Source of the DNA: a bacterium
GTDB taxonomy: Bacteria > Electryoneota > Electryoneia > Electryoneales > Electryoneaceae
Assembly: GCA_028278125.1 (NCBI GenBank)
Contig: JANQEY010000186.1
Coordinates: 1 to 23,387, forward strand
Direction: 5' to 3'
Length of the DNA: 23,387 nt
Of this stretch, positions 1-23,387 are shown in pieces (the first letter of the stretch is position 1; each line of letters starts with the position of its first letter). A program made the translations under genes and the position numbers. The notes under the pieces are model-generated. The model was not told where the DNA came from. It saw only the letters and a program-made list of their open reading frames with translations, and made no database searches.

Positions 1-1973
1 TTCCTGGTTACTTCCATATCTGCATAGGGATGATCGGGATTATCACCCCAGAATGCCTGGTTCTGCATCCACAACATCTCACCATGGCCATAGACAGGGT
101 AATATGACATCGCCTCGGAATACCCATGATCCATCCACTGGATACCCCTTTTAATCGCTTCCTGAACCGTACAATGGTGGAAATGGATGCCTGATGTTCT
201 CAAGTACTCCAGGCTGTTTGAAGATAAATCGATCTCTTCAGCATCTTCGAAAATCGCATCGAAAACCCTTTTGTGCTGTTCCGGATCATTATATGTGAAT
301 TCCTGTGAAGTTGTGTATTCGAGAAAGCCGGATTCCGATGTATGGTGATAGGCATGAAGACCAATATTCATGCGGTTTTCCCACCCGAAATTTACATCGC
401 CTGAGTCCAACAAACGAAGGAAGTCCTTGTATTCTTCAGGACAGTTGGTCAATCTCAGTTCACCATGAGCATTATTCCAATCATAATCAGGTGCATCATA
501 TGTTACATACGTGTCGCCCTCCTCAAATCCATTGTTTTCCAGGGGAATCTCAAGCTGGTTTTCAAACAGGTGAACATCGTCAACAAAAACACTTCCACCG
601 GCATATTCCAGCAAAATTTGCATTTGGTAGTTTTCTTCCAGCAGAATGCCTTCAGCGACGGAGAAATTTAGTTCCTGCCATTTACCTGTTGTTGTTCTGA
701 AACATTCAGATCTTTCTATCTCATTATTTGAAGGATCAAGTATTACAATGTATATACCACCTTCACCGGTTAGCTCCCCACGGATCATTGCCCAAAGTGA
801 AACGTCAATTTCGTTTCCGGGATTCATTGTGAATGCTTGCTTCACATAACAGGATTTGTCCGCATCGACTTCCATCCTGCAAGAACGGTTCCCTTCAAAT
901 CTGTCAAACGGTACCCATGAGATATTTGCCCTGTTTAAGCGCCATCCATATTGAACACCCTGGCTGTACCCCCACAGATACATCAGTTTGTCATAGATGA
1001 CAACCATGGACATTTTGAACCAGGGGAAGTTCTCCAGTATCCGTACCATGCTGCTCTGAAGGGGATCGTCAGGATCGTTCGGTATAGTTGGGTATTTCCA
1101 TTGGTTTCCAAGTGGAAAATCATCCCCGATATAAAACAATGCTCCTTCTGCGCCGTAGGGATGGGGTGAGGGTGAGGCCATAACACGCATAAAATCGAAC
1201 GCATGGTGATCCACCGGATCAACTGTTAATAGAAATTCACGTCGAATTCTATCACCCGGTACTAGAACTGAGTGAACTTTGGGTCCTATTTCAGCTCCCC
1301 TCGGATTACCCGTACGCATTACTCTTTGTTGAACCTGCCTCTCACGCTGGATAAAATCGCCATGAAAAGGATTGCTCAAGCTGGTAACAAATTCAAGATC
1401 ACTATTACGTAAGGCAAAACCATTCTGCAGGCATGTTTCATGGGGTGGAAGATCATTAATTGAAATTGCGTATGATCCTGCTGTGTTCATAAAAACACAT
1501 GTGTCAAAAGGTGTCCCTTCAAACGCGATAACCGCATCATCGAACAGATGAACAGTGTCAGTCGGTATCCACTCTGTAATCAGCTTTACACCCTCACTCA
1601 ATGGTATCCATGTTTGAATGATTTCCAGGTTTCCTTCACCCAGTGCATCAGGCCTCTTCCCCCTCACGATCAATTCAGAATCGTCAATTATTTCACTGTC
1701 AAGGTAAACCATTGGTACATTTTCAGTACCTGCGCCAAAAGCCGGATATGCAAGGTTTAGATTGGACAACCCGGCTTCGTAGGGAAGTATAGTGGTACTT
1801 AGTGAGATGATTGCTCCCGGCGCATTGTCTTGGGTACTGTTAACATTGACAGTAACCGAATAGTTCTGACCTGTGATTTTAAATAATCCAGTATCCGAAT
1901 ATTCAATTGATTGCGCGAAAGTTGTAGTAAATGATAGTAGGAAAAATAGAAGAGATGCGACCGGCCGTTTCAC
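1..1973 (-). CDS. Secreted protein with carbohydrate-binding-like domain and polysaccharide-deacetylase-like segment (3' end beyond window)
   Basis: One frame stays open from a GTG at 1973 to the window edge (657 codons, no stop). The GTG is chosen because GGAGGGGG lies 7 bases before it and the first 20 residues form a signal peptide ending TTTFA. Residues about 343-470 look like a jelly-roll carbohydrate-binding module: aromatic-rich start, a KWQELNFSV strand and a closing VFVDDVHLFE strand. From about residue 475 comes a region with LHAYHHT at 539-545, which resembles the zinc-binding histidine motif of NodB or DUF2334-type deacetylases, followed by a second His cluster (IHFHHC). The aspartates that would complete the site were not located, so enzyme class is inference. 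A role in export and polysaccharide binding or trimming is plausible. The C-terminus, where a sorting domain might lie, is outside the window. Confidence 0.75.
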   Translation of the reverse strand, partial: MKRPVASLLFFLLSFTTTFAQSIEYSDTGLFKITGQNYSVTVNVNSTQDNAPGAIISLSTTILPYEAGLSNLNLAYPAFGAGTENVPMVYLDSEIIDDSELIVRGKRPDALGEGNLEIIQTWIPLSEGVKLITEWIPTDTVHLFDDAVIAFEGTPFDTCVFMNTAGSYAISINDLPPHETCLQNGFALRNSDLEFVTSLSNPFHGDFIQRERQVQQRVMRTGNPRGAEIGPKVHSVLVPGDRIRREFLLTVDPVDHHAFDFMRVMASPSPHPYGAEGALFYIGDDFPLGNQWKYPTIPNDPDDPLQSSMVRILENFPWFKMSMVVIYDKLMYLWGYSQGVQYGWRLNRANISWVPFDRFEGNRSCRMEVDADKSCYVKQAFTMNPGNEIDVSLWAMIRGELTGEGGIYIVILDPSNNEIERSECFRTTTGKWQELNFSVAEGILLEENYQMQILLEYAGGSVFVDDVHLFENQLEIPLENNGFEEGDTYVTYDAPDYDWNNAHGELRLTNCPEEYKDFLRLLDSGDVNFGWENRMNIGLHAYHHTSESGFLEYTTSQEFTYNDPEQHKRVFDAIFEDAEEIDLSSNSLEYLRTSGIHFHHCTVQEAIKRGIQWMDHGYSEAMSYYPVYGHGEMLWMQNQAFWGDNPDHPYADMEVTR

Positions 1974-2208
1974 TTTGTAACCCCCTCCAGAATTGATACC
2001 TGGATTTATCTTCGGCAATTTATGTTCCAGTTTATAAATAATTGTATATATAGTAGATGAGTTTTTCTCGAAAATACTATTGTGAAATGGGTATCCCTGT
2101 ATGTGCACACTGTACACATATAGATGACTATTGCAACCATCTTATTAACATTGTATTCATCAGAAGTTTTTGTATCTCGCTCCCCTCAGTATTTGGATAT
2201 AGTCTTTC

Positions 2209-3374: not shown

Positions 3375-4145
3375 CTATTCAATTACCTGTTTTATTTTCC
3401 TGACTTCGCAGTTGGGATCTTCTTCACATCCGAAGTTAAAATCAAACTGAATTTCCTCACCATCAGGATTATCGGTCTGAATTCCTTCCAATTGAATTTC
3501 AATCTTCTTCATGTCACCTTCCATCTCTGTCTGAACACTGACGTTCTCAGCTGTAATGCCTTCAGCTGCCAGGGCGGTATGGATGGCTGCTTCAGCCTCA
3601 GCGTCAGACATTCCTGTCAGATCAAGGTTAAAATACCTTGTCGCTATTGCTGCTAATGCGTTTCCGCCTATCTCGGTTGTTAAAACTTCGGCCTTGATAG
3701 ACTCGATATCAAGATCCGGTATATTCTTATGCAATGCTGTTCTGATATTTTCCGCTGCTTTATCAGGTGAAACATCAAGGAAGGTATAATTGATAAACAT
3801 TTTATCATCTGCAATTTTGATAAACGTATTCTGCAAGTTTTCCATCTCAATTGAGATGTTTTGCATGTTATCATTGATGAAATTCTCTGTCATGGGAAGT
3901 TGAACTGTTACCAGTGAACCCACCGGCATATCGTAAGTAACAGGTATTAAAAGAAGTGCTACCACCAGTATGGCTACCCCTGCAATACCTATCGCTGTCC
4001 TGTTTATTGTTCTCATCGGGATAAATCTCCTTGTTTTCTGTTGCTCCAAGTGAGCCATGGTTCTTGAGAATTGGAATGGCTCAGGTTCTTCTCTGGACAA
4101 GTCCTTGAGACCTTTTTCAACCTGCGTGGGCAAATTCTCTTTCAT
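3375..4145 (-). CDS. Single-pass membrane protein, probable anti-sigma factor
   Basis: The product has 256 residues: a cytoplasmic N-terminal part of about 50, one transmembrane segment at about 51-68 (AIGIAGVAILVVALLLIP), then an exported domain of about 185 residues ending with a Cys pair in GCEEDPNCEV. That topology, and its place directly after an ECF sigma gene, fits an anti-sigma factor that senses the cell envelope. I see no zinc-type HxxxCxxC anti-sigma motif, so the sigma-binding region is not recognised. The start is the ATG at 4145 because GGAGGG lies 7 bases upstream. In-frame ATGs at 4175, 4160 and 4151 are possible but worse placed. The gene overlaps the sigma gene by 29 bases, which suggests translational coupling. 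The stop is TAG. Confidence 0.7.
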   Translation of the reverse strand: MKENLPTQVEKGLKDLSREEPEPFQFSRTMAHLEQQKTRRFIPMRTINRTAIGIAGVAILVVALLLIPVTYDMPVGSLVTVQLPMTENFINDNMQNISIEMENLQNTFIKIADDKMFINYTFLDVSPDKAAENIRTALHKNIPDLDIESIKAEVLTTEIGGNALAAIATRYFNLDLTGMSDAEAEAAIHTALAAEGITAENVSVQTEMEGDMKKIEIQLEGIQTDNPDGEEIQFDFNFGCEEDPNCEVRKIKQVIE

Positions 4146-4638
4146 TGCCATTCCCTCCATCGTTAAGACTCTCATAGCATTTTCTCAGTTGAGAGCGTCC
4201 CCTGGATAACCTGCTTTTTACAGCAGAATTGCTGACTTTCTGAATCCGGGCGATCTCTTCGACCTTCATCCCGAGAACTTCATAGAGGATAATCGATTCA
4301 CGCTGCTTGAATGGAATCATCCTTAATGCCTGCCGGACAATTTCTTTTTCCTCGAAGGGTAGATTCTCTTCTGAATAAAGCTGTTCTGCCTCATCAATCG
4401 GAAGAAAAACTTTGTACCACTTCTGCCTGGCTTTGCTTCGGTATGAATTCCTGATGATTTGAAGCACCCAGTACTTGAATTTTTCCCTTTCCTTCAATCG
4501 TGAGAAAGAATTCCATGCTTTAATCAAACCATCCTGCAGCAGGTCATCACCATCTGCTTTTGATCCGGCAATCGAACGTGCGTATCGCATCAATTCCGGG
4601 TAGATCGGTTGAAGCAGTGTCTCAAAATCTGTTTTCAT
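4117..4638 (-). CDS. ECF-family RNA polymerase sigma factor
   Basis: This 173-residue protein has the two domains of an extracytoplasmic-function sigma factor. Region 2 spans residues about 8-75 (YARSIAGSKADGDDLLQDGLIKAW, then KFKYWVLQIIRNSYRSKAR). Region 4 spans about 100-155, with a helix-turn-helix (MKVEEIARIQKVSNSAVKSR) that would read the -35 element. It directs RNA polymerase to a stress or envelope regulon, usually including its own promoter, and is normally held inactive by the partner encoded just downstream. The start is ATG at 4638; a TTG one codon earlier is less likely. No strong ribosome binding site is visible. The gene ends in TGA, which shows that TGA is used as an ordinary stop in this genome. 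Confidence 0.93.
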   Translation of the reverse strand: MKTDFETLLQPIYPELMRYARSIAGSKADGDDLLQDGLIKAWNSFSRLKEREKFKYWVLQIIRNSYRSKARQKWYKVFLPIDEAEQLYSEENLPFEEKEIVRQALRMIPFKQRESIILYEVLGMKVEEIARIQKVSNSAVKSRLSRGRSQLRKCYESLNDGGNGNEREFAHAG

Positions 4639-4747
4639 CAACTATGCCATCACCGGTGTTGGTTTCAAATACAAGACGCTCTTCGCAGCAAAATGGTCGC
4701 ATCATTTCTCTGTGCTCTCATACTGAGTGAAAACGATAAACAGAAAT

Positions 4748-7171: not shown

Positions 7172-8488
7172 ATGGAAACAAAACACACAGTCGTCATCGG
7201 TGATTCAAGGGATATGAATGAGGTTCCAGGTGAATCTGTTCATCTTGTTGTTACATCACCACCTTATTGGCAATTGAAAGATTACGGCGAGGCCGGCCAG
7301 ATAGGCTACAATGATTCTTACGAAGAATACATCAACAATCTCAACCTTGTCTGGAATGAATGTTATCGTGTATTGCATAAGGGCTGCCGTCTCTGCATCA
7401 ACATTGGTGACCAGTTCGCTAGGTCAGCATATTATGGTAGATACAAGGTTATTCCCATCCGTGCGGAAATAATCCGTTTCTGCGAAACCATTGGATTTGA
7501 CTACATGGGTGCGATTATCTGGCAAAAGGTCACAACTACCAACACGACAGGTGGCGCATCCATCATGGGATCATATCCATATCCCAGGAATGGAATTCTT
7601 AAGCTGGATTACGAGTTCATCTTGATTTTCAAAAAACTGGGAAGGCAGCCACAAGTATCCAGGGAGATTAAAGAAAGGTCAAAACTGTCGAAGGAAGAAT
7701 GGAATACCTGGTTCAGCGGGCATTGGAATTTTCCCGGAGTAAAACAGACAGAACACCTGGCTATGTTCCCGGAAGAATTGCCGAAACGGTTGATCCGGAT
7801 GTTCTCAATGGTTGGTGATACTGTACTCGATCCGTTCCTGGGGAGTGGAACAACCTGCCTTGCAGCAGTAAACAATGAGCGAAATTCAATCGGTTATGAG
7901 AAAAATCCTGACTTTACAGATGAGATTAAGGACAAACTGGGATTCAGGGACAGGCGAAAATCATCGGGCAGAAATATAGAAATTACAAGTAGTAATCAGA
8001 TATCGGAAAACTTCCAGGATCGTATTGAAGCACTTCCATACATATTCCATGATCCGGTCAGGTTTCAAAAACGATCAAAACCGGTTGAAAATAATTTCGG
8101 TTCAAAAATACGAAATGATGATCAAAATCTAAGGGAAAAATACCATAGAGTTAAAGCAGTGAATCGTCCTGATTTGATTCAATTGGACAATGATGAATTT
8201 GTCAGGTTGATCGGGATTAAACCCGTTAAAGAAAAACAAGAATCAGCGATTAAATGTTTGTCGGAGTATTTCAGCGGTACAAAGATCTACCTGAAATATG
8301 ATTCTGAAACTTTTGACTCGGATGGTAACCGTTATGGATATGTCTTTTTAAGAAACAGAACATTTGTAAATGCGCATCTTATAAAAAGCGGTAATGTTGA
8401 AGTTGATGAAAGTTCTGAATACCGTTTCAAATCGAAATTTTTATCCTACCAAAAAGAAAGCCCGGATAAAAAATCCGGGCTAGAATAG
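7172..8488 (+). CDS. DNA methyltransferase (beta-class amino-methyltransferase) fused to a staphylococcal-nuclease-like domain
   Basis: Residues about 7-255 form an N4-cytosine or N6-adenine DNA methyltransferase. The catalytic motif IV is TSPPY (28-32), and the S-adenosylmethionine motif I, DPFLGSGT (220-227), comes after it, which is the beta-class order. SPPY is more often seen in N4-cytosine enzymes, but the base cannot be assigned. After a polar linker, residues about 326-437 match the staphylococcal nuclease fold: a VRLIGI strand, then DSDGNRYGYVFLRNRTFVNAHL, then a Gly-Asn-Val-Glu-Val turn and a final basic helix. The nuclease arginine in FRLL appears kept (VRLIG), but the D-T-P-E and Y-G-R catalytic segments are changed, so this domain may only bind nucleic acid. 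No restriction enzyme gene is adjacent. AGGA lies 4 bases before the ATG. The last codons form a hairpin that serves the convergent gene. Confidence 0.88.
   Translation: METKHTVVIGDSRDMNEVPGESVHLVVTSPPYWQLKDYGEAGQIGYNDSYEEYINNLNLVWNECYRVLHKGCRLCINIGDQFARSAYYGRYKVIPIRAEIIRFCETIGFDYMGAIIWQKVTTTNTTGGASIMGSYPYPRNGILKLDYEFILIFKKLGRQPQVSREIKERSKLSKEEWNTWFSGHWNFPGVKQTEHLAMFPEELPKRLIRMFSMVGDTVLDPFLGSGTTCLAAVNNERNSIGYEKNPDFTDEIKDKLGFRDRRKSSGRNIEITSSNQISENFQDRIEALPYIFHDPVRFQKRSKPVENNFGSKIRNDDQNLREKYHRVKAVNRPDLIQLDNDEFVRLIGIKPVKEKQESAIKCLSEYFSGTKIYLKYDSETFDSDGNRYGYVFLRNRTFVNAHLIKSGNVEVDESSEYRFKSKFLSYQKESPDKKSGLE
8451..8481 (-). terminator. Terminator of the minus-strand sorting-domain gene, inside the methyltransferase 3' end
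   Basis: A 9-bp stem AGCCCGGAT / ATCCGGGCT with a 5-base loop (8459-8481) is followed, on the minus strand, by TTCTTTTT. On the plus strand it is not followed by T, so it acts for the gene ending at 8506. It overlaps the last codons of the methyltransferase. Confidence 0.8.
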
Positions 8489-8505: not shown

Positions 8506-10047
8506 CTATTTAAGAAGCATAATTTTGCCGGTTTGCTGGATGTTAAAATTGTCTCCAGTTGCAGTTATAGTCACAAAATAAACTCCACTTGAAAAACCGG
8601 TACCATCCCATTGTACATTGTAACTGCCTGCAATGTAATGTTGATCGGTTAATTCAATTACCTCCCGACCGACTACATCAAATAGTTTTATATTTACTAA
8701 AGCATTAGAAGTGAGATCGAAAGATATCTGAGTCTCAACATTAAAGGGATTTGGATGAACATTAGTTATACTTAATATCTGTTCTCCAGTTGATAAATTT
8801 GTTCTGTGAGCTGGTTCAGTGTTATTAATTTCCTCGAACCAGCCAGAAACAATCCAATCTTCGACACTTTGATTATTGATTTCGAATCCACCAAGTTTTT
8901 CAAACTCAAAACTGTCTTCAGCTATTACCTCGGGATAATCGCCAACTTTTGCGTGATAGGTATATATCCCGGCAGGCGCAAAACCTGGAACAGCTTGGGT
9001 TGGTGAAGCCATGATCATTGCATCACCCACAAGCGCCAGTCCTTCAAATAAGGTCAGTGGACCGTATGAACTCCCATTTGGTAAAGTAAGCTCCGTCCAT
9101 GCGTCAAATATTACGATATTTTCTGTAAGATTTATTACTGTAGCATCCCACAGGAAATTCCCACCATTTGCGGGAATTGCTACAGGCGGATTTGATGGTT
9201 CGGCTATTAGTTCAAGCTCTGGTCCCTCAGCAGTTAATTCATGCGCGTAAATTAGTGAGTTATGGAATAAAACAATCATATCGCCATCCCAGCTGAAGTC
9301 ATCAGCCAGGAACTGGTTGACGCAAATAGCGGTTCCTCTCTCACCGACCAGTGGATAACCATTATCCCAATCAGCAACCCAACCTGAACCTTCAGTTATT
9401 TCTGATTGTGAGAATAACCATCCGCCCGATAACCAGGCTACATCTACCATTATCGGATGTTCAGTGTCAAAATCACCTAATTGAAGTACCGGCTCAAATC
9501 CCATTCCTATACCCCCAATGGAAAAGGGGAGGTATTCATCATCAATTATTCTACCTTCAAGCCGCATCCCTTCGGTCACTGATGAGAAAGTACATACTAT
9601 AGCGCCACCCGCATCAATATAATCAGCCAGAAGATTGCCCAGCCCTATGGCATCACTGAACCATATCACGGCATAAACCCAGACAACATCATATTCAAGC
9701 ATTTCTTCTACGGTGGGTAAGTCTTCGGTATCAACATTGATATGGTCTATTTCTTCAATATCATCATAGGGGAGAAGGAGATCGCCTATTATAGCGGGAT
9801 AGAGATCGTTGCTGAGTGTCAAAATTGATATCGGTTGATCAAGTTCATTGTTATACCGGTATCCTAGTGAATAATCGATCTTCCGTTCACCAGAATTATC
9901 CTGGTTACCTAAGTTTTCGATGGAAGAGACCAGGTTATCTGATAGTGAATAGTCGTTGTTTGTACCGGCTAACGAAGAGTAGCTGACAATAGTAAATAGC
10001 AATACAATACTTAATGTGATTGTAAAATGACGGCGTGAATTTCTCAT
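8506..10047 (-). CDS. Secreted protein with Rossmann/GATase-like domain, Ig-like domain and C-terminal sorting domain
   Basis: The product has 513 residues. A signal peptide occupies about 1-28 (hydrophobic TITLSIVLLFTIVSY, cleavage near SLAG). Residues about 70-270 contain alternating strands and helices with YDVVWVYAVIW, LLADYIDAGGAIVCTFS and HPIMV, which resemble the glutamine-amidotransferase-like (ThuA-like) fold often found in exported FCB proteins; no catalytic Cys-His pair was identified. Residues about 285-395 look like an Ig-type beta domain. The last 80 residues are a sorting domain (HPNPFNVETQISFDL to GKIMLLK) of the type recognised by the type IX secretion system. The function is therefore likely on the cell surface or outside, and the substrate is unknown. 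The start has GGAGGGG 6 bases upstream. It is a neighbour of the three redox paralogues but lacks their thioredoxin domain. Confidence 0.88.
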   Translation of the reverse strand: MRNSRRHFTITLSIVLLFTIVSYSSLAGTNNDYSLSDNLVSSIENLGNQDNSGERKIDYSLGYRYNNELDQPISILTLSNDLYPAIIGDLLLPYDDIEEIDHINVDTEDLPTVEEMLEYDVVWVYAVIWFSDAIGLGNLLADYIDAGGAIVCTFSSVTEGMRLEGRIIDDEYLPFSIGGIGMGFEPVLQLGDFDTEHPIMVDVAWLSGGWLFSQSEITEGSGWVADWDNGYPLVGERGTAICVNQFLADDFSWDGDMIVLFHNSLIYAHELTAEGPELELIAEPSNPPVAIPANGGNFLWDATVINLTENIVIFDAWTELTLPNGSSYGPLTLFEGLALVGDAMIMASPTQAVPGFAPAGIYTYHAKVGDYPEVIAEDSFEFEKLGGFEINNQSVEDWIVSGWFEEINNTEPAHRTNLSTGEQILSITNVHPNPFNVETQISFDLTSNALVNIKLFDVVGREVIELTDQHYIAGSYNVQWDGTGFSSGVYFVTITATGDNFNIQQTGKIMLLK

Positions 10048-10354: not shown

Positions 10355-10385
10355 TAAAAAAGCCCGGATAAATAAATCCGGGCTT
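10355..10385 (-). terminator. Terminator of selenoprotein gene A
   Basis: A 10-bp stem AAGCCCGGAT / ATCCGGGCTT with a 6-base loop is followed on the minus strand by TTTTTTAATT. The stem is almost the same as that of the terminator at 8459-8481. Confidence 0.88.
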
Positions 10386-10407: not shown

Positions 10408-11190
10408 TTATTTCAGTAACATCATTTTCCTGGTGCTGCTGAAGCTTGAATTCTCACCGGCAGTTTTTATTGAATAGAAATATACACCACTTGGCATATC
10501 TGAAGCGTTCCAGGAAACTGCATGCCTTCCTGCATCAAATGGCGCATCCGCCAGGACGGCTACTTCACGTCCCATCAAGTCGTATACAGCCAATGTGACC
10601 TGGGTATGTACCGGCAAAGAAAATTCAATCTCAGTTTCCGGGTTGAACGGGTTGGGATAGTTCTGCTCAAGTGAAAATACTTCCGGCAAAGTTCCAGCAG
10701 ATAATTCATCAACTGAATCAAAATCGTATTCAATTAACCAACCAAGGGAATTCAGCATAACTTCATTACGGGAATCCACGTCGGCAATTGCTTCAAACGG
10801 GAAACCCAATAGTAGTGTTCTGTATCCTTCACCTTCATGACGAATTCCAGCTCTACGGATAGTTGAATACTTCAAACAATCTGTACCACCGTCATCCCTT
10901 AATGAACTTGGAATTCCGCGGTTATCCGCTCCATCGCCACCCTGGATATCAAATTCCAGTCCACCGTAGTAAGGATCGGCTTCAACGCCGAACACTGAAG
11001 TTCCCTGTTCAAAATGATCCTGGTATTCTGCACCCATCGAGGTAATTAATGCTGATCCGTCGAGATAGAAAGGTGCCTGGCTACCTGTAATCCAGAGGTT
11101 ACCTCCACCTGCGAGGTATTCATCGAGAGCAGTACATTCCTGGGGAGAGATAGTTCCTGTAGCACCTGTGTACCATATTATCAACTCGGG
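10408..11190 (-). repeat. Near-identical 3' region shared with paralogue B (copy A)
   Basis: From the stop up to about 11190 this DNA is nearly identical to 12675-13457, including an unbroken 64-base identity (10722-10785 with 12989-13052). Beyond about 11190 similarity drops sharply to ordinary paralogue level. The third paralogue is clearly more diverged over the same part. Confidence 0.75.
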
Positions 11191-12456
11191 AGCCACGTCA
11201 TTAATCTCTACCGGATTCAGGACATGTTCGAATTTGTTCCAGTCACTATAAGTCAGGGTACCTGCCAACTGAATATTATTGGCTGCATCTAACGCATTAA
11301 GATAAAAATCTGCATTATTACCTTCGGCATCACCATTTACAACCAGCACCTGTCCCGGAGTGTGGGCATAATAACTGAAACTGTTTGTGAGGACAGGAAG
11401 TCCCTGGGAGGTGACGGTTAATGTTAGTTCGCCGTCAACCGCTTCTACTGCATCGCTTGTGAATATTGTGATTGTGCTGGTATAGTTTTCCCCTGCTGCC
11501 AGCGAAACAGTCGCATCGCCTGTCTGTTCTCCATCAGGTGTGGTGTAGTTAAAGCTCCATTCGGGCGGCATATCAGGAACTACGGTGATGTCATAAACAT
11601 CATCCAGCATGGCAGTGTTTTCGATATAGAGATCATACGTAACTGACTCTGCCGGTGAAGTAAGGTGTGACAAATCCTCTGATTGGGCTACAAAATCGAA
11701 CCCAAATCCCAATTCAGCCCAGTTAGACTGGAGTACTTCCTCAGTATCATCATCTTGTACAAAAACAACAACTTTGATGTTGGATTGCTCTATTTCCGTA
11801 CCCTCAAGGTCGTGTGGCCAGGGGAAAGTTGTCTCGTACATTTCAGTTGAATTGGCGTCAATGGAAAACTCTAAACCGTCTTCATCAGGTGCCATATCGA
11901 GCATATCATCATGCCACTCATCCTGACCGTCACCAGCAATAAAATCATCCCAGTAAGTAGTTACCAGTACAAAACGGATATACACGTCCCCATCAATAGC
12001 TTCATCGCCACTGGTGACAAAGGCCATTGCAGTTACTTCATCTTCACCCACCGTTGATGCAATATCAATTGTTATTGGGCTTTCGATATCAATTCTATCG
12101 TCGAAATTGGACTGCATCTCAGCATAGTGAGTTGCTTCATCCCAGTACCACCCGGTCATTTGAATTGTGCCATCAAAGAATAAATCCGGAATTCCTCCAA
12201 CTCCATAATAGGTTTCCCTGGCGTCATGTTCCTGTCCGTTGTTGTCATACCATGGATCTGAATAACAGTGGTAAACAATTACCACAACATCATCTGGATT
12301 ATCTGCCGCAAAATCTGCTACCACAGGCGCCGCCTGTGCGCAGTAGCCTCAATACTGTCCGTTAAATTCTTCAAGCAGAACTCTGCGTGGGAATGCAAAC
12401 AGACTTCCTGTCAGAAAGACAAGAATGAATGAAAAAATCATTAACTTACGGTACAT
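10408..12456 (-). CDS. Putative secreted selenoprotein A: UGYC thioredoxin/Omp28-like domain, Rossmann-like domain and sorting domain
   Basis: Read from the ATG at 12456 (GGAGGA 4 bases upstream) to the TAA at 10408, the frame has 683 codons and one internal TGA at 12351-12349 (codon 36). Residues 1-21 are a signal peptide (cleavage after LFA). Then come RRVLLEEFNGQY, the TGA, and GYCAQAAPVVADFA. This is a thioredoxin-fold active site with U-G-Y-C in place of C-G-Y-C, and the cis-proline loop is GGIPDLF (Pro 90). Residues about 130-250 are a beta domain as in Omp28-like proteins, about 255-366 an Ig-like domain, about 368-585 a Rossmann/GATase-like domain, and 598-682 the sorting domain (LEQNYPNPFNPETEIEF to RKMMLLK). 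The inferred role is an exported thiol-disulfide or reductase protein on the cell surface. Selenocysteine is inferred from position, hairpin and paralogues; selA, selB, selC and selD are not in the window. Confidence 0.85.
12317..12347 (-). promoter_or_regulatory. SECIS-like hairpin after the TGA of gene A
   Basis: Numbering bases after the TGA, 11-17 (CACAGGC) pair with 21-27 (GCCTGTG) around a GGC loop at 18-20. A lower stem pairs 2-6 (GCTAC) with 28-32 (GTAGC), leaving a 4-base bulge TGCG on the 5' side. A G at the start of the apical loop, at this distance from UGA, is what is known for bacterial SelB-binding SECIS elements. Confidence 0.75.
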
Positions 12457-12499
12457 ATTCTCCTCCTCAATCCTTAAATTGGTTCTGAATCCTGCTACT

Positions 12500-12540
12500 A
12501 TTGTATACAAGATAGTAAAGAATATTTTTGACGCAATATC
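12500..12540 (-). promoter_or_regulatory. Shared promoter-like element upstream of gene A
   Basis: Read on the minus strand: GATATTGC, nine variable bases, ATTCTTTACTA, one base, CTTGTATACAAT. The same 41-base arrangement stands before paralogue B. TATACAAT fits a -10, placing the transcript start roughly 35-40 bases before the ATG. The centre TTGTATACAA is a perfect palindrome and could instead be an operator. Confidence 0.6.
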
Positions 12541-12617
12541 CTGTGAAAAATTTTACAAAATGTTTTAGGTAAAAAAAGCGTAAAGTAAGCTATTTATTAT
12601 TTTAAGCTAATATTTAC

Positions 12618-12648
12618 ATAAAAATGCCCGAAGTACATTCGGGCATTT
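12618..12648 (-). terminator. Terminator of selenoprotein gene B
   Basis: An 11-bp stem AAATGCCCGAA / TTCGGGCATTT with a 5-base loop is followed on the minus strand by TTTTATGTAAAT, downstream of the stop at 12675. Confidence 0.88.
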
Positions 12649-12674
12649 AGAATCATTTTATCAGGATATTTTGA

Positions 12675-13457
12675 TTATTTCAGAAGCATCATTTTACGGG
12701 TACTACTAAAACCCGAGTTCTCACCGGCAGTTTTTATTGAATAGAAATATACACCACTTGACATATCTGAAGCGTTCCAACTAACCGTATGCTTTCCTGC
12801 CTCAAATTGAGCATCCGCCAGGACAGCTACTTCACGTCCCATTAAGTCGTATACTGCTAAGGTGACCTGGGCATGTACTGGCAGAGAAAATTCTATCTCT
12901 GTTTCCGGGTTGAACGGGTTTGGATAGTTCTGCTCAAGTGAATATGTGCTGGGAATTGACCCCGCACTCAATTCATCAACTGAATCATAATCGTATTCAA
13001 TTAACCAACCAAGGGAATTCAGCATAACTTCATTACGGGAATCCACGTCGGCTATTGCTTCGAATGGGAATCCTAATAGAAGTGTTCTGTATCCTTCACC
13101 TTCATGACGAATTCCGGCTCTACGGATAGTTGAATATTTTAAACAATCTGTACCACCGTCATCCCTTAATGAACTTGGAATCCCACGGTTATCCGCTCCA
13201 TCGCCACCCTGGATATCAAATTCCAGTCCACCGTAGTAAGGATCATCTTCTACACCAAAGACAGAAATCCCCTGTTCAAATTGTTCCTGATATTCTGCTC
13301 CCATCGATGTTATTAATGCTGATCCGTCGAGATAAAAAGGTGCCTGGCTACCTGTAATCCAGAGGTTACCACCTCCTGCCAGGAATTCATCAAGAACTGT
13401 ACATTCCTGGGGAGAAATAGTTCCTGTAGCACCTGTGTACCATATTATCAGCTCGGG
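12675..13457 (-). repeat. Near-identical 3' region shared with paralogue A (copy B)
   Basis: This is the partner of 10408-11190. It encodes part of the Rossmann-like domain and the whole sorting domain. The 5' two-thirds of the two genes are much less similar. Confidence 0.75.
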
Positions 13458-14702
13458 TGTTGCGTCTAAAATTTCTGCGGGAACTAGAACATTTTCAGCT
13501 TTATTCCAGAAACTGAAGTTCAAGTCGCCTGCCAGAACTGTTTCTTCAGCCGCTAGCAATGCGTCATTATAGAAACTTTCGAAGTTTCCTTCGGACTCAC
13601 CATTTATAACAAGTATTTGACCGCTCGCGTGAACATAATAATTATAAGTATTCGTAAAAACTGGAACTGATTGCGATGTCACCGTGAATGAAATCATTCC
13701 ATCTTCAGCGGGAGATGCCGCATCTGTAGTAACTGAGATAGTACTGATATAGTTCTCTTCGGGTAACAGAGTCAGCGCATAGTCTCCAGTTGTCTCTCCG
13801 TCTGGAGTAGTATACTCGTATGACCATCCCGGTGGAATGTCGGAGACTACAGTTATGTCGTAAGTATCTTCCAAAAGCCCTGAATTACCGATTTCCAGGC
13901 TGAAATCAGTCATTGTCCCTGCCGGTACCAGGTGGTTGGTTACGTCGCTGACGGAATAAAAATCAAAACCACCACCGATTGCTGCCATTTCGGATTGAAG
14001 GACATCTTTTGTATCATCGTTCTGTACCCAGACCAGTGCAGTAACTTCCTCTTCAGTTAGTACATCATTATTAAGAGTAATCGGCCAGTTGAACGATGTC
14101 TCGAATATTTCTGTCGCGTTTGCATCGATCGTGAACTCCAGGCCATCTGCATCCGGAGCCAGATCAACACAGTCATGGTAGAAGTCTGTCTGTCCATTAC
14201 TTGCTCCATTCCAGAATACGTCATTGGAAACTAGAGCGAACCGAATTCGGTGGTCTTCCAGTATATCAGCATCGCTATTTTCAACAATAGCCATTACCTG
14301 CATTTCATCTTCTAATGGAATAGTAATAATCTGGATACTGACTGGGCTTTCATTTTCCATTCTATCGTCGACAGCGTTACCTATTGAAGCATCGTTAATA
14401 GGCCAGATATCGAGCTCACCACCTACCCAGAGAGTTGGGATCGCTGTAACATTGTAATAACTGAACCGATCTTCATGTTCAGTACCGTTGACGGTATACC
14501 ATGGATCATTACTACCGTGGTACACAATAACTGAAACCTGGTCAGGATTATCTACAGAATAGTCGTGTATCGCCTGCGCCGCAGCCGGACAGGTTGGTCA
14601 CCACTCTGTCATAAATTCTTCAAGCAGAACACGCCTGGGGAAAGCCCACAGCGTTCCCACCAGAAGAAGAACCAAGAATACACTTAAAAGTGTCCTGTAC
14701 AT
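12675..14702 (-). CDS. Putative secreted selenoprotein B: UPTC thioredoxin/Omp28-like domain, Rossmann-like domain and sorting domain
   Basis: The frame runs from ATG at 14702 (GGAGGA 4 bases upstream) to TAA at 12675: 676 codons with one internal TGA at 14600-14598 (codon 35). A 20-residue signal peptide ends in LWA. The redox site reads RRVLLEEFMTEW, TGA, PTCPAAAQAIHDY, so U-P-T-C replaces C-P-T-C, and the cis-proline loop is AIPTLW (Pro 89). Domain order is as in paralogue A: Omp28-like beta domain, Ig-like domain, Rossmann/GATase-like domain and sorting domain ending RKMMLLK. Without readthrough the first usable downstream start would give a sorting-domain protein with no signal peptide, which makes no biological sense. 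The redox domain resembles paralogue C more than A, while its 3' third is almost identical to A. The hairpin after the TGA has one G-G mismatch and is the weakest of the three. Confidence 0.85.
14566..14591 (-). promoter_or_regulatory. SECIS-like hairpin after the TGA of gene B
   Basis: Bases 14-17 after the TGA (CTGC) pair with 21-24 (GCAG) around a GGC loop at 18-20. Then comes a G-G mismatch, CG pairing with CG, and a possible outer TGT/ACA stem with small bulges. The loop position and sequence are the same as in A and C. Confidence 0.6.
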
Positions 14703-14737
14703 ATTTTCCTCCAAAAGTTGAAATGATTTTTCCGGCC

Positions 14738-14778
14738 ATTGTATACAAGTTAGTAAAGAATTCCCTCAAAGCAATATC
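14738..14778 (-). promoter_or_regulatory. Shared promoter-like element upstream of gene B
   Basis: It has the same 41-base layout as at 12500-12540: GATATTGC, nine bases, ATTCTTTACTA, one base, CTTGTATACAAT. Here the nine variable bases include TTGAGG, 18 bases before TATACA, a fair sigma-70-like pair. It ends 35 bases before the ATG. Confidence 0.6.
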
Positions 14779-14850
14779 AGTCGAGAGAAATTGCATCGTG
14801 ACATGAGGCAGATGTTTATAAATTTAATAACCGGTGAATAATCTTAAAAC

Positions 14851-14877
14851 AAAAAACGCCCGAACATTATTCGGGCG
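14851..14877 (-). terminator. Terminator of selenoprotein gene C
   Basis: An 8-bp stem CGCCCGAA / TTCGGGCG with a 5-base loop is followed on the minus strand by TTTTTTG. Confidence 0.85.
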
Positions 14878-14903
14878 AATGAATTTTATAACTGAATATT
14901 TAA

Positions 14904-16934
14904 CTATTTCAGTAGCATCATTTTACGCGTGCTACTAAAATTGGAATAATTTTCACTTGTACTGAGACTGTAGAAATATATTCCACTCGGTAATCCGGCG
15001 GCATTCCACGAAACAGAATGAGTACCAATTGAATATTGTCCGTTTGCTAAAACAGTAACTTCACGACCCATCATGTCAAAGATTGACAATTTTACCCTGG
15101 AGTTCTCAGGGAGCGTGAAGGTGATATCAGTTTCAGGGTTAAATGGATTGGGATAGTTCTGGTTCAGGGCAAATGAAGACGGAACAGATCCTTCAACCCT
15201 TTCATCAACGGGGTTGTAAAGATAATCGATCAACCAGATCCACGAGTATAACATCACGCTGGTCCTGCTTTCCGAATCGGCTATTGCTTCAAATGGGAAT
15301 CCAAACAGTAATGTTCGATACCCATCGCCCTGGTAACGAATCCCAGCATTTCGTATAGTTGAGTACATCAGGCATTCTGTTCCACCTGCGGTATTCAAAG
15401 AGCTGGGTGTACCACGGTTATCAGCACCATCACCACCCATGATATCAAATTCCAGGTCGACAAAGTAGGGATCTTCCTCGGCAGAATGAACTGCATAACC
15501 CTGTTCAAATGGACTTTGGTAAGCTGCACCCATCATGGTAATTAAGGATGAACCGTCAAGGTAAAACGGGGCATTGCTACCGCTTATCCAGAGAGTACCT
15601 CCAGCATTCAGGTAATTCTCAAGCTCAACCATTTCGAGAGGATGAAGGGTTCCACCATCACCGGTGTACCAGATCACCATGAGAGGAGAAGATTCTACAA
15701 TTTCTACGGGATTGAGCAGATGTTCAGATTTATTCCAGGTGCTGTACCTGAAATCACTATCAACAGTTAGTCCCTGAACCTCAGCGATAGCATCCATGTA
15801 ATAGTCTGAATAGTTACCCGCGGGATCACCATTAATTATGAGGATTTCACCGGCAGCGTGAGTATAATAATCATATGTGTATGTAAACGGTGGTACCGCT
15901 TGTGATGTCACTGTGAAAGAGATGATACCATCCACTCCCATTGTAACACCACTTGTTTCGATAGTAATGGTACTGGTGAATGTTTCATCGGGGATCAAGG
16001 TTATTGTTGAGTTCTCACTGGTCTCGCCATCGGGTGTTGTATAACTGAAATCCCATTCTTCAGGAACGTTTGAGGCGATCGTAATGTCATATGAATCTTC
16101 CAATAGACCTATATTGGCGATTTCCAGTTCGAATTCTACAACATCTCCGGGTGCTACCAGGTGGTCAGTAGTTTCGCTGATAGTGTAAAAATCATATCCA
16201 CCGCCGAGCTCATTCATTTCGGATTGAATAACCTCTTTTGTATCATCGTTCTGAATCCAGACAAGAGCGGATACATTATCTTCCTCGAGTATTTCTTCAA
16301 GCAGCTCTATAGGCCAGTTGAAATAGGTCTCATATACTTCAACGGAATTCGCTTCAATCGTGAACTCCAACCCATCAGCGTCTGGTGCCATATCGATACA
16401 ACTGTGATAAAAATCTTCCTGGCCGTTATACGCACCGTCCCACCACATGTAGTTTGATACCAGTGCAAACCTGATCTGGTGATCCGCAGTTATAGCTTCG
16501 TCACCGCTTTCAACTATAGCAAGCACCTGGATTTCATCTTCAAAGGGAATGGTGATCAACTCGATACTGACCGGGCTTTCGATTTCAACCCGTTCATCAA
16601 CAGCGTTGCCAATATTGAGTGCATCAATAGGGTAAACATTTGTTTCACCATCTGCTATCAGAGTTGGTATGCCGAATACATTGTAATAATCAATCCTGGC
16701 ATCATGTTCTGATCCGTTAATATCACACCAGGGACTGGGTGGGAAGTAATATGCTATCGTTGTAACGAGGTCAGGATTTTCCTCATAAAAGTCGTGAATA
16801 GCCTGCGCCGCAGGCCCGCAAGGACCTCAATTATGTGCCCCGAATTCTTCGAGTAGTACTTTCCTTGGGAACGCAAACAGAGTTCCTGCCAGGAGAGCAG
16901 TAATAACCGTACAAATCATCAATTTTTTAAACAT
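14904..16934 (-). CDS. Putative secreted selenoprotein C: UGPC thioredoxin/Omp28-like domain, Rossmann-like domain and sorting domain
   Basis: The frame runs from ATG at 16934 (GGAGGGAGAA just before it) to TAG at 14904: 677 codons with one internal TGA at 16829-16827 (codon 36). A 21-residue signal peptide ends in LFA. The site reads RKVLLEEFGAHN, TGA, GPCGPAAQAIHDF, so it is the classic thioredoxin CGPC with selenocysteine in the first place. The cis-proline loop is GIPTLI (Pro 90). A further Cys at 70 (PSPWCD) is not shared with B. The later domains match A and B but are more diverged; the sorting domain starts LNQNYPNPFNPETDITF and ends RKMMLLK. It lies 160 bases downstream of the flavodiiron gene on the same strand with no visible terminator between, so co-transcription is possible. 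The 41-base element of A and B was not found upstream. Confidence 0.87.
16800..16816 (-). promoter_or_regulatory. SECIS-like hairpin after the TGA of gene C
   Basis: Bases 11-17 after the TGA (GGGCCTG C, closing on the loop) pair with 21-27 (GCAGGCT): six Watson-Crick pairs and one G-U, with the GGC loop at 18-20. It is compact and stable, with the loop at the same distance as in A and B. Confidence 0.75.
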
Positions 16935-17094: not shown

Positions 17095-18300
17095 TTACGA
17101 ACCTTTAATCAATTTGCCCAGTTCATTTCCAAATTCAAAACATTGACCAAGGATCTCATCGTCTGGTTTGTATTTCACCTGCAACGGCTCCAGTGGTATG
17201 TCCGCTTTGATTTCTTCGAGATAAGAAACTATCTGTTTTGTCGCCGCAGGGCTCCATCCATAAGATCCAAAAGCTGCTCCGGTAATTTTATGGTTCTTAG
17301 GTTTCAAACCTTTCAGGTATGTAAGGATATCAGCAACAGTGGGGAAGAGGCCGGCGTTGAGATTCGGGCTTCCCACTAACATAGCAGAAGCGTCGAGTAA
17401 TTCCGTTGCGATTACACTTCTCGGTGTACGACTTAGAGGCAACACCTTGACATCTACACCTGCTTCAAAGATTCCATCGGCAATTACACCCGCCATTTTC
17501 GATGTGCTTTGCCACATGGTATCGTAGACAACGACTGCTTTTTTCTCAGTTTCGTGATTTATCCACTTCCTGTAAAGGTTAATTATCCAGTCAAGTTTCT
17601 CACGCCATACAGGACCATGATCGGGAGCGATTATCTCTACCGGTTCAGAAAATGACTGCACTTTTTCAATAACCTTGCCTGTAGCAGCGGAAAAAGGCCA
17701 GAGGATGTTGGCGAAATAAGTTTTTGCTTCATATTCAAGAATCCAGGGATCTATCTCGTCGGCGAACCTTTCCATTGAGGCGAGGTGCATCCCAAAAGCG
17801 TCATTGGTGAACAGAATCTTGTCCTTATCCAGGTAAGTAAACATGCTGTCCGGCCAGTGAACCATCTTCGCGTCAAGGAATTGGAGCTTCATGTCTCCCA
17901 GGTCGAGAACATCACCCTCATTCGCGGTTTCTATCTGCCAGCCTTCATGAAAATGCAACTCCAATGCTACTACACCCTTTGGCGAAGCAAATATCTTCTC
18001 AGGTTGGATTTCCCTGATAACATCCGGGAGGGATCCCGTATGATCCATCTCTGAATGGTTGGAGATCAGATAATCTATTCTTGACGGGTGTATGACGGAA
18101 TTTATCCTCGCTAACATCTCTTCCCTGAAAGGTGCTTTAACTGTATCTACCAGGGCGATTTTCTCACCCAGGACGAGGTAGGCGTTATAGGTGCTGCCAC
18201 GTTCAGTCGTATAACCGTGAAAATCCGTTAATTCCCAGTCAATAGCCCCCACCCAGTATACATTGTCGCTTATTTGCACAGCCCTGAAACTGTTTCCCAT
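17095..18300 (-). CDS. Flavodiiron protein (A-type flavoprotein, O2/NO reductase)
   Basis: The 401 residues match the two-domain class A flavodiiron proteins. The N-terminal metallo-beta-lactamase-like domain keeps every diiron ligand at the expected places: H82, E84, D86 and H87 in NHSEMDHTGS, H148 in KMVHWPD, D167 in FTNDAFG and H228 in APDHGPVW. From about residue 254 comes a flavodoxin-like FMN domain (AVVVYDTMWQSTSKMA, VGSPNLNAGLFP, AAFGSYGWSP). No C-terminal rubredoxin domain is present, so electrons must come from a separate carrier. These cytoplasmic enzymes reduce O2 to water or NO to N2O, protecting anaerobes. GGAGGA lies 7 bases before the ATG. The promoter faces the divergent thioesterase gene. 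Selenoprotein C follows on the same strand. Confidence 0.96.
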   Translation of the reverse strand: MGNSFRAVQISDNVYWVGAIDWELTDFHGYTTERGSTYNAYLVLGEKIALVDTVKAPFREEMLARINSVIHPSRIDYLISNHSEMDHTGSLPDVIREIQPEKIFASPKGVVALELHFHEGWQIETANEGDVLDLGDMKLQFLDAKMVHWPDSMFTYLDKDKILFTNDAFGMHLASMERFADEIDPWILEYEAKTYFANILWPFSAATGKVIEKVQSFSEPVEIIAPDHGPVWREKLDWIINLYRKWINHETEKKAVVVYDTMWQSTSKMAGVIADGIFEAGVDVKVLPLSRTPRSVIATELLDASAMLVGSPNLNAGLFPTVADILTYLKGLKPKNHKITGAAFGSYGWSPAATKQIVSYLEEIKADIPLEPLQVKYKPDDEILGQCFEFGNELGKLIKGS

Positions 18301-18876: not shown

Positions 18877-20958
18877 TCACCGTCCCGGGGATGGAACAGG
18901 GACAGGACTGTAATCCGGTTTTTCCGGTGTCATCAAGAAGGAACCGGTCTCATCCGTCTGCGGACGCCAGCCGTTTTTCCACTCAACCGCCGGTTCAAAA
19001 TTCGGATAAATCTTCAGTAATTCAACTATTATCTGGTTTGCTTCGTCTTCTCTGCCTTGTGCCCACAAGGAACTGGATATCGCGAAGGGGAAGAATGGAT
19101 TGAGCGGATCGATATCAGCGGCCTGTTTAAACAGGCTTTGAGCTTTTTCCCACTCTCCGGAATCGGCTTCTTTCAATCCTCTTTCACCAATTTCCTGCGC
19201 CAGCAGGGTGCGAATTTCTTTCGATTTCGGTGCCAGCTGCACGGCATTTCGAAAAGCATCTTCCGCTTCATTTCTCATATCCAGCTGCCTGTATGCCAGG
19301 CCAAGTCCACGGTATGCTTCGACTCCTTTACTAGACTCCAGTTCCCGGAGAAAATATTCCACCGCTTCCGCTGCTCGACCCTGTTGCATTGATAACTGAC
19401 CAAGGTAGAGATTTGCCAGGGGAGTAGTGGGGGAATGTTCCAACGCTGCTCTGAAGGATGACATCGCTTCAATGGATTTACCTTCTCGAACCAGTACCTG
19501 TCCTAGCAGGAGGTTTCCATAGGCAGGATTACCTCCTATCGGAACACCGGCAAAATTTCTGTTTAACAAAAAAATGAGCACAAAAACAAGAACAGCGTTT
19601 ACCAGTTCACGACGCCATTTTAACTCTTCGATTTTGAAGTGCATTATAAAATTGACCGCGAATAGTGTAAATATAGCCGCTGTCGGCATCCTGAACCGTG
19701 CACTGAAGAAGAAGAGGATTATACTCAGCAGGTAAAGCAGGGCAATCCCTGCAACGAGACGTTTTTCAGGATATTTCCAGGTATTTATTATTCCCACAAT
19801 GGCAAAGGGTGCTATCAAGCCGAAACCGAGGAACAAAAGTAGTTTTAATAACGGATTTCGATTAGCCATAAAATCAAGATCGCCATTGTTGCTTACCTCA
19901 GCACTCCCGAATGCCAGGAATAATTTCTTTCCAAGTAGTTTTAGACCGTCACCCGGATTAAAAACCAGGTACCTTAATCCCTCTTTATAATAGAATGATG
20001 ATACTTCCGACGGTGACATTATCCGTCCTGTTTTTTGCTCAGCCCATGCATGTGCCTTTTCAGGTGTCCAGAATACACCAAGTTCCGGGTGAAATGCAGT
20101 GTACCCGTTCGCCTGCGAGTTGTTACCAAGGTAAAAATTGATGCCACCGTTAACTGATATCAATACAGGATCGCCCTGCGTCATGTTTCTGAATGTTACT
20201 GGCGCGATAGCTAGGACAACAGCGAGGACAAATGATCCGGCGAAACGCATATTCAGCGAACTATCTATCCTGCGTCTGAAAAGAATATCAAGGCATACAA
20301 GAGCAACTGGAATCAACGCAACCGGACGTGTAATGGCGGTTAATCCCCATAATATCCCCGCAAACACATACCTCTTGATTGAAGGTTTTTCCCTGGCGAT
20401 TAGCGTTAGGTTGATCGATTCGATTGTCAGGTAAATCAGCAGCGATGTAATCAAACCCGTACCACTGAAATGAACCAATAATCCCTGGAACGAAAGAACA
20501 ATTCCTGCGGCAAACGCCACTTTTTTATTGAACAACTTTGTACCGAGCCGATATGAAGCGTTGACGGCTAACGCTCCCAGGAGAACGTTTGCCAACCGCG
20601 CGAAGGGAAATGCCGGGCCGAACAGGAGATATATAATTCCCAGGAAAGTCGGCCATAAAGGTGGTCGGAAAAACGGGCCTGGATCGTATCCCTGCCCACT
20701 TGCAAAAGCGCGCGCGATACGGTCATAATCAACTTCATCAACAATCGGTATAGAAAAGCCAGGTTGCGCTGCCAGGGTAACGAGATAAACCAGGCGGATG
20801 GCAAGCGCCAACAGGAATATTAACAGTGCCGGGCGATCTTTCAGGGAAAATTTTTTCTCAGAGTTGGGGGTTTTATCAGTTTTTGACTTTTCAGTAGCTT
20901 TAGATTTTGAGGATTGTTTACCGTCGTTTCTCAATTTTTTCTGTTCCCCGTCAGCCAT
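18877..20958 (-). CDS. GT39-like integral membrane glycosyltransferase with C-terminal TPR domain
   Basis: The product has 693 residues. Residues 1-38 are a Lys/Ser-rich cytoplasmic tail. The first membrane helix (about 43-63) leads into PIVDEVDYDRIARAFASGQGY, which carries the acidic first-loop motif (DE) of GT-C transferases such as ArnT and PMT, followed by FFRPPLWPTF. Several more membrane helices follow to about residue 470. Residues about 480-665 contain at least four TPRs (for example GQVLVREGKSIEAMSSFRAAL). Such enzymes move a sugar from a polyprenyl-phosphate donor to a protein, lipid or glycan on the outer face of the inner membrane; donor and acceptor are unknown. The TPR part may hold the acceptor or a partner. 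No strong ribosome binding site precedes the ATG. The gene ends with TGA, a second example of TGA as a plain stop. Confidence 0.88.
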   Translation of the reverse strand: MADGEQKKLRNDGKQSSKSKATEKSKTDKTPNSEKKFSLKDRPALLIFLLALAIRLVYLVTLAAQPGFSIPIVDEVDYDRIARAFASGQGYDPGPFFRPPLWPTFLGIIYLLFGPAFPFARLANVLLGALAVNASYRLGTKLFNKKVAFAAGIVLSFQGLLVHFSGTGLITSLLIYLTIESINLTLIAREKPSIKRYVFAGILWGLTAITRPVALIPVALVCLDILFRRRIDSSLNMRFAGSFVLAVVLAIAPVTFRNMTQGDPVLISVNGGINFYLGNNSQANGYTAFHPELGVFWTPEKAHAWAEQKTGRIMSPSEVSSFYYKEGLRYLVFNPGDGLKLLGKKLFLAFGSAEVSNNGDLDFMANRNPLLKLLLFLGFGLIAPFAIVGIINTWKYPEKRLVAGIALLYLLSIILFFFSARFRMPTAAIFTLFAVNFIMHFKIEELKWRRELVNAVLVFVLIFLLNRNFAGVPIGGNPAYGNLLLGQVLVREGKSIEAMSSFRAALEHSPTTPLANLYLGQLSMQQGRAAEAVEYFLRELESSKGVEAYRGLGLAYRQLDMRNEAEDAFRNAVQLAPKSKEIRTLLAQEIGERGLKEADSGEWEKAQSLFKQAADIDPLNPFFPFAISSSLWAQGREDEANQIIVELLKIYPNFEPAVEWKNGWRPQTDETGSFLMTPEKPDYSPVPVPSPGR

Positions 20959-22419: not shown

Positions 22420-23387
22420 CTATTTAATCAGCACCATCTTCTTCATATCAGCGAATTCTGGTGTTTCTATCCAGTAGAAGTACATTCCACTTGCCAGGTT
22501 ACTTGCGTTGAATGTCACCTCATGGATACCTGGAGTCATTCTTTTGTCCACCAGGTCGGCAACCTGTTGCCCAAGAGTATTATAAACAGTCAGCCTGACG
22601 TGTTGTGTTTTAACCAGGGTGAAGCTGATCTGGGTCGTGGGATTGAATGGGTTTGGATAAGCGGAGTGCAATTCGTATTCGCTTGGAATTTCAGAACCGG
22701 TGAAAGTTGTTTCTCCTGTTTCTCCGAACATCCTCTGCAGAACCTCTTTCTGTTTCTGATGGAAATCTTTTATACTGTATGGAACAACTTCAGCATTCAT
22801 TCCAAGAACCGGAAGATTGAGAGGTGTTGAATGATCTATTATCCTGCTGCCACCGTAACCATCCAGTTCTCCACCTTCATCCATTGCCATCTGGTAGTAG
22901 GTTTCAAGCTCATGCAATATGCCGTAAAGTGAATCTTCTTCAGTATCGGCATCCATGATATAATCATCAAGCTGATCAATACTTTCTTCAAAATCACCAA
23001 TACGGTTCTGGAACGTTAACCTTGCCCAAAAAGCTGATGATCCGAGGTCTTCGTCTTCAAGGTAGGATTCGCAATCTTCCACGAGAACACTGTCAGTGAT
23101 ACCGAGCGCATCCCTACACCTTAACCAACCCATAAAAGCAGCAGTGATCCCATCGTCTTCTGCCAGGTCGAGGTAAAGAGTAGCGGCAGACTCATAATAG
23201 CCGTTCAGCTCATAATTCTGCGCTAATGTAAAATCATCTGTGGATAATGCATTCCTGTTTGCTGTCAGGTCATATTCATTAGGATTATAATTAAACCAAT
23301 TGTTTGGAATGAACCAATCATCGCCGTCGCCCTCGCTACCGTAGAAATTCCCAGCACAAATGATGTCATTTGTTGGGGCTGCTGAAC
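22420..23387 (-). CDS. C-terminal part of a secreted protein with helical-repeat region and sorting domain (5' end beyond window)
   Basis: The frame is open from the right edge to TAG at 22420, about 322 residues. The visible N-terminal part has an Asp/Gly-rich stretch (GSEGDGDDWF) followed by NALSTDDFTLAQNYELNGYYESAATLYLDLAEDDG, which reads as TPR-like helices and continues to about residue 200 with paired helices. The last 80 residues are the sorting domain (YPNPFNPTTQISFTL to KKMVLIK) expected on type IX secretion cargo. An internal ATG at 23133 is not the start, because coding similarity continues upstream of it. FCB proteins of this shape often carry long Ig-like or repeat regions upstream, so the whole protein may be large. 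Function unknown; probably cell-surface. Confidence 0.85.
   Translation of the reverse strand, partial: SAAPTNDIICAGNFYGSEGDGDDWFIPNNWFNYNPNEYDLTANRNALSTDDFTLAQNYELNGYYESAATLYLDLAEDDGITAAFMGWLRCRDALGITDSVLVEDCESYLEDEDLGSSAFWARLTFQNRIGDFEESIDQLDDYIMDADTEEDSLYGILHELETYYQMAMDEGGELDGYGGSRIIDHSTPLNLPVLGMNAEVVPYSIKDFHQKQKEVLQRMFGETGETTFTGSEIPSEYELHSAYPNPFNPTTQISFTLVKTQHVRLTVYNTLGQQVADLVDKRMTPGIHEVTFNASNLASGMYFYWIETPEFADMKKMVLIK

Follow-up and report, generated by a model that had tools for sequence, protein, structure and literature searches.

Three neighbouring genes with in-frame TGA codons in an Electryoneota contig are predicted to encode thioredoxin-like selenoproteins with type IX sorting domains

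Three paralogous genes with one layout

The stretch of DNA analysed here (the window) is a contig of 23,387 bases with 43% G+C (JANQEY010000186.1) from a bacterium of the Electryoneota. The available text of PMC10439189 groups this phylum with Fibrobacterota-Chlorobiota-Bacteroidota and does not contain the string 'seleno'. On the minus strand of the window, three paralogous genes are arranged head to tail: gene A (10408..12456, 682 aa), gene B (12675..14702, 675 aa) and gene C (14904..16934, 676 aa). Compared with the protein of A, that of B has 65% identity and that of C 53%. All three share one layout, which consists of a signal-peptide-like start, a thioredoxin/Omp28 part, a beta part, a glutaminase-like domain and a type IX sorting domain. 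A predicted structure was made for gene B, and the domain limits in A and C were set by alignment to this model. The signal-peptide-like starts, judged by eye and with no predictor, agree with the signal peptides that an earlier note on this DNA had placed before the TGA codons described below. The same note had recognised type IX-style sorting domains, and these scored above the curated cut-offs in all three proteins, both with the type A profile TIGR04183 (A 35.3, B 38.2 and C 41.1 bits, cut-off 23) and with PF18962 (33.9, 37.7 and 37.6 bits, cut-off 27).

Codon 35 or 36 of each gene is a TGA, the only internal stop codon; TAA and TAG do not occur inside the frames. The TGAs of A (12349..12351), B (14598..14600) and C (16827..16829), all on the minus strand, fall into a single alignment column, and we predict that they encode selenocysteine (Sec, U). 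This column holds the first residue of a UxxC thioredoxin site that reads UGYC in A, UPTC in B and UGPC in C, which confirms that every paralogue has one in-frame TGA where the first Cys of CxxC belongs. A reassignment of TGA was considered and rejected, as two other genes in the window (4117-4641 and 18877-20958) end in TGA and the code is thus not simply reassigned.

Relatives carry Cys at the position of the TGA

A contig scan with a single window protein returned one locus, an Ignavibacteria Cys homologue. Relatives for the TGA column came from one phylum, to which an Ignavibacteria genome, G001, gave access. Segments of loci L001, L010-L049 and L109-L128 that matched a profile of the front part gave 54 rows, from which 12 duplicates and one row that did not cover the column were removed. 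All 41 remaining relatives have a Cys codon in the TGA column (23 TGC, 18 TGT). Cys is also found at this site in P0014, the closest full-length relative of the same layout. A search with the tail-trimmed protein recovered P0014 again, together with a distant relative (P0162) that likewise has Cys. Homologues with Cys at the TGA position, which the earlier note proposed to look for, therefore exist. Next to the Cys relatives at L010, L012 and L031, in other genomes, there are additional Omp28-like sites that share their strand, so neighbouring copies recur among the Cys relatives.

The other nine of the ten close relatives (P0006-P0013 and P0015) have gene models that start downstream of the site, as judged by eye for P0015; the contigs of P0010 and P0013 are short, which may explain their cut models. 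Two of the three window proteins, P0004 and P0005, likewise start after the TGA in the database, so for these two the expectation that automatic annotation would cut the genes short was borne out. Gene models in this branch thus lose the signal peptide and the active site in 9/10 close relatives and 2/3 window proteins.

Wider searches were less specific. A scan of viral contigs gave 59 loci, all of which matched only from query residue 533 onward, mostly in the sorting domain. The first search of the phylum of G001 matched 149 of 296 genomes and was dominated by sorting domains; four of the listed matches exceeded 200 bits. With NF045500, a profile named 'Omp28-related selenoprotein', 33 of the 296 genomes matched at E <= 1e-10, none of them above the cut-off, and in two of the 33 (G104 and G175) the match lay outside the thioredoxin part. 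Among the 45 matches listed, one contained an internal TAG, one a TAA and none a TGA. In the class of genome G133, 43 of 197 genomes matched, and none of the 49 matches listed had an internal stop. The Sec form was thus not found in the phylum searched, which includes this class. None of the 33 genomes with NF045500-like matches, which are of unstated completeness and are those that the SelB search covered in this phylum, has SelB, whereas the positive controls E. coli and M. jannaschii both matched. A search of G001 for the tRNA of Sec (tRNA-Sec) gave 13 matches below the cut-off and was uninformative, as all 14 controls matched too (five above the cut-off). For KSB1 except clade II, the accessible portion of PMC9012183 reports selA, selB and selD as predicted and selC as not found.

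Selection persists downstream of the TGA

Downstream of the TGA, all blocks of the genes show less nonsynonymous than synonymous change. The ratio of the two (dN/dS) after the TGA is 0.24 between A and B and 0.09 between B and C; between A and C, synonymous sites are saturated. Over the 35 codons at the front, the ratios are 0.80 (A-B), 0.28 (A-C) and 0.41 (B-C), which is weak evidence given the few sites. Selection persists downstream of the TGA, and the domains there, in frames free of TAA and TAG, are intact as had been claimed.

These results bear on the possibility that the TGA is a real stop, in which case the genes would be pseudogenes, or each would be expressed as two pieces with a restart after the TGA. 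TGA does act as a terminator in the window, in the two genes named above. A GTG lies nine codons past the TGA in gene A and 25 codons past it in gene B, and P0004 and P0005, by their length, begin at these codons. Against this, the 89 codons that follow the TGA of gene C include no ATG, GTG or TTG (with a CTG at 56), yet 47 of the 89 encoded residues are the same as in B. A restarted protein would lose its signal peptide and the first residue of the active site, and all three TGAs fall on the sole column that holds the catalytic Cys of relatives. Together with the rarity of nonsynonymous change in all post-TGA blocks, this makes termination at the TGA very unlikely.

A hairpin follows each TGA at the same distance

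For decoding of the TGA as Sec, SelB would bind a hairpin downstream of it, the bacterial Sec insertion sequence (SECIS). The earlier note had seen a hairpin at the same distance from each TGA, and its place holds: in A, B and C alike, the loop is GGC and starts 17 nt past the TGA. Its strength is uneven. The predicted SECIS hairpins of A (12322..12338) and C (16800..16816), both on the minus strand, have seven base pairs and energies of -9.8 and -10.5 kcal/mol, and the SECIS-like hairpin of B (14571..14587, minus strand) is weaker, with one G.G mismatch and -6.9 kcal/mol. According to the accessible part of a 2026 review (PMC13188914), bacterial SECIS elements have a loop of 3-9 nt with a G in the first two loop positions, a stem of 4-16 bp, a distance of 16-37 nt from the UGA and an energy of at most -7.5 kcal/mol. 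The hairpins of A and C pass these limits, which are reached at 43 of the 1973 codon positions (2.2%) across the three genes and at none of 30 Cys sites in relatives, picked by motif and including some that represent one gene in overlapping loci. Among 2000 synonymous recodings in each case, the observed energy was reached by 26 in A, 457 in B and four in C. An Rfam scan of the window (E <= 5) gave 11 matches, none above the gathering score and none to SECIS or tRNA-Sec families.

In the three sequences, 20 of the 21 cells of the stem pair, and four of the seven base pairs have changed on both sides. Only 7 of 500 shuffles did equally well, and shifting the partner strand abolished the pairing. 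These stem-preserving changes alter the protein, as in CAG-GCG-GCG-CCT (QAAP) in A versus CCT-GCG-GCG-CAG (PAAQ) in C.

In a second alternative, the UGA is read as Cys, Trp or another residue by a route that does not involve SelB. Any recoded UGA would leave the frame open in the same way, and the Sec machinery of the organism is itself a prediction. TGG and Cys codons occur in the same genes, however, and TGA stops genes elsewhere in the window, while a hairpin at a fixed distance with paired changes suits decoding by SelB. We regard such a route as very unlikely. An error in sequencing or assembly for TGC or TGT is scarcely credible: the TGA is one base from the Cys codons of relatives, but the error would be needed identically in three diverged genes, and the gene models of nine of the ten close relatives likewise begin past the site.

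Known relatives and predicted fold

Omp28-related selenoproteins are an already known kind. In the part of PMC13188914 available, NF045500 corresponds to GOS_C, with a UxxC motif, and the accessible text of PMC2398784, an ocean survey from 2008, first reports GOS_C, counting 74 sequences with Sec and 312 with Cys and noting a thioredoxin-like fold. A, B and C match NF045500 with 56.7, 40.3 and 28.1 bits (E 2.5e-15, 2.5e-10 and 1.3e-6), far under its cut-off of 200 bits, and are homologous to it over at most profile positions 39-268 of 377. By these scores they are distant relatives of NF045500 rather than members. As far as the available sources describe NF045500, the two have in common the UxxC motif, the thioredoxin-like fold (here from the gene B model), Cys homologues and a SECIS-like hairpin. 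The glutaminase-like and sorting domains of A, B and C lie outside the matched part.

Matches to Omp28 itself were low. Gene A reached 24.1 bits with PF11551, below the gathering cut-off of 34.9, and B and C were not listed at E <= 0.01. With NF033782, gene A scored 34.5 bits, and all window proteins were below the cut-off of 150. PF11551 was matched at E <= 0.001 by eight of the 12 rows of one of our alignments (A2). Unlike the Omp28 family, A, B and C lack, by eye, a lipoprotein cysteine at the end of the signal peptide. In comparison with glutaminase-like or ThuA-like domains, their domain is, again by eye, without a catalytic Cys at what we take to be its usual place, and it may have a binding role.

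The best fold match of the gene B model is HBP35 of Porphyromonas gingivalis (PDB 5y1a, 15% identity). In this model, the fold is common to both over the thioredoxin part and the part that follows it. HBP35 differs from the window proteins in having Cys at the active site where Sec is predicted here, and in its size, as it has 344 residues and no glutaminase-like domain whereas the window proteins have 675-682. HBP35 binds hemin. The accessible part of PMC3120885 identifies it as a cargo of the type IX system, and the available text of PMC2907840 reports that recombinant HBP35 was a stronger reductant of insulin than E. coli thioredoxin, an activity that was lost when both active-site Cys residues were changed. 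The solved structures matched by a sequence profile of the whole family were all FlgD, in the tail. A partial fold of gene C made from one sequence had a mean predicted local distance difference test score (pLDDT) of 34.5 and gave no usable model.

Predicted selenoproteins at the cell surface

We consider it very probable that the TGAs of A, B and C are read as Sec, giving proteins that are predicted to exit through the type IX route and would exchange disulfides at the cell surface. This draws on direct observations: TGA stands where relatives have Cys, selection persists beyond it, a hairpin with paired changes follows it, a sorting domain is present and the model of gene B matches a known fold. 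It agrees with the proposal that Sec occupies the catalytic site of a thioredoxin-fold protein related to Omp28. In the mechanism we propose, SelB and tRNA-Sec would bind the hairpin downstream of the UGA and Sec would be inserted. The protein would cross the inner membrane by means of its signal peptide and the outer membrane by means of its C-terminal sorting domain, which would then be cleaved off. At the surface, the UxxC site would act on disulfides, reducing or exchanging them in the manner of the CxxC of HBP35. By analogy, A, B and C may thus be surface thioredoxins with Sec at the attacking position.

Several points weigh against this interpretation. The hairpin of B misses the SECIS energy limit (-2.2 kcal/mol with a perfect stem, -6.9 with the G.G mismatch) and is not its minimum-energy fold. 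The covariation is based on three sequences, and the 43-nt stretches fold with no more than modestly low energies (z of -1.71 in A, -0.66 in B and -1.82 in C). Before the TGA, dN/dS is weak evidence (0.28-0.80 over some 35 codons), and after it the synonymous sites of A-C are saturated. The selA, selB, selC and selD genes and the type IX machinery of the organism are presumed, as is a TGA in the relatives with shortened models, of which P0010 and P0013 sit on short contigs.

The earlier note knew of no described family of this kind. NF045500/GOS_C is a precedent, so this holds in part: in open-licence papers, we found no record of the distant branch, of the architecture with glutaminase-like and type IX domains or of the tandem triple. 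Nor did we find, in such papers, literature that joins Omp28 with selenoproteins, or selenoproteins with type IX secretion. PMC13188914 covers 119 selenoprotein families or subfamilies, and the available part of its Table 1 presents none of them as cargo of the type IX system. With moderate confidence, we lean towards seeing here the first selenoproteins routed by type IX secretion, as three tandem HBP35-like Sec-thioredoxins whose fronts diverge and of which two have converted back halves. Sec outside the outer membrane, if true, would face the oxidants of the habitat. The case raises the questions of whether Sec survives type IX export and why three copies would be needed per genome.

Organisation and evolution of the gene cluster

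The DNA of A and B is far more alike at the 3' end than at the 5' end. Nucleotide identity is 48-59% in the front (codons 1-400) and 85-96% in the back (from codon 450), the similar 3' stretches being 10408-11110 and 12675-13370. Gene conversion has probably homogenised the two genes in their glutaminase-like and export parts, with the redox part free to diverge.

Each gene is preceded by a ribosome-binding-site-like stretch (by eye), and terminator-like hairpins on the minus strand follow gene A (10360..10385) and gene C (14857..14877), from a scan that found nine such sites in the region where 7.0 were expected and listed none after gene B. The three genes therefore look like separate units rather than a single operon. 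Genes A and B are also preceded by TTACTANCTTGTATACAA, which contains the palindrome TTGTATACAA, at 12501-12518 and 14739-14756 on the minus strand. These sites lie approximately 37-62 nt upstream of the ATG and are absent before C; two matches were found against 0.01 expected. They are a possible shared promoter or operator of A and B.

Neighbouring genes

Directly upstream of gene C lies a flavodiiron (FprA-type) gene (17095-18300, minus strand), whose best named relative is from Candidatus Electryonea clarkiae (67% identity). Flavodiiron enzymes act on oxygen or nitric oxide, and this neighbour would fit a setting of redox stress. No tRNA genes were found in the window. Two further minus-strand genes (8506-10047 and 22420-23133) have a type IX sorting domain above the Pfam cut-off, and the gene at 4117-4641 on the same strand encodes an extracytoplasmic function (ECF)-type sigma factor. 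An open frame of 705 aa (3-2117, minus strand) runs off the window and has no Pfam match at E <= 0.01. On the plus strand, 7172-8488 encodes one protein that combines a DNA methylase with a nuclease-like end, the latter from a weak SNase match below the cut-off.

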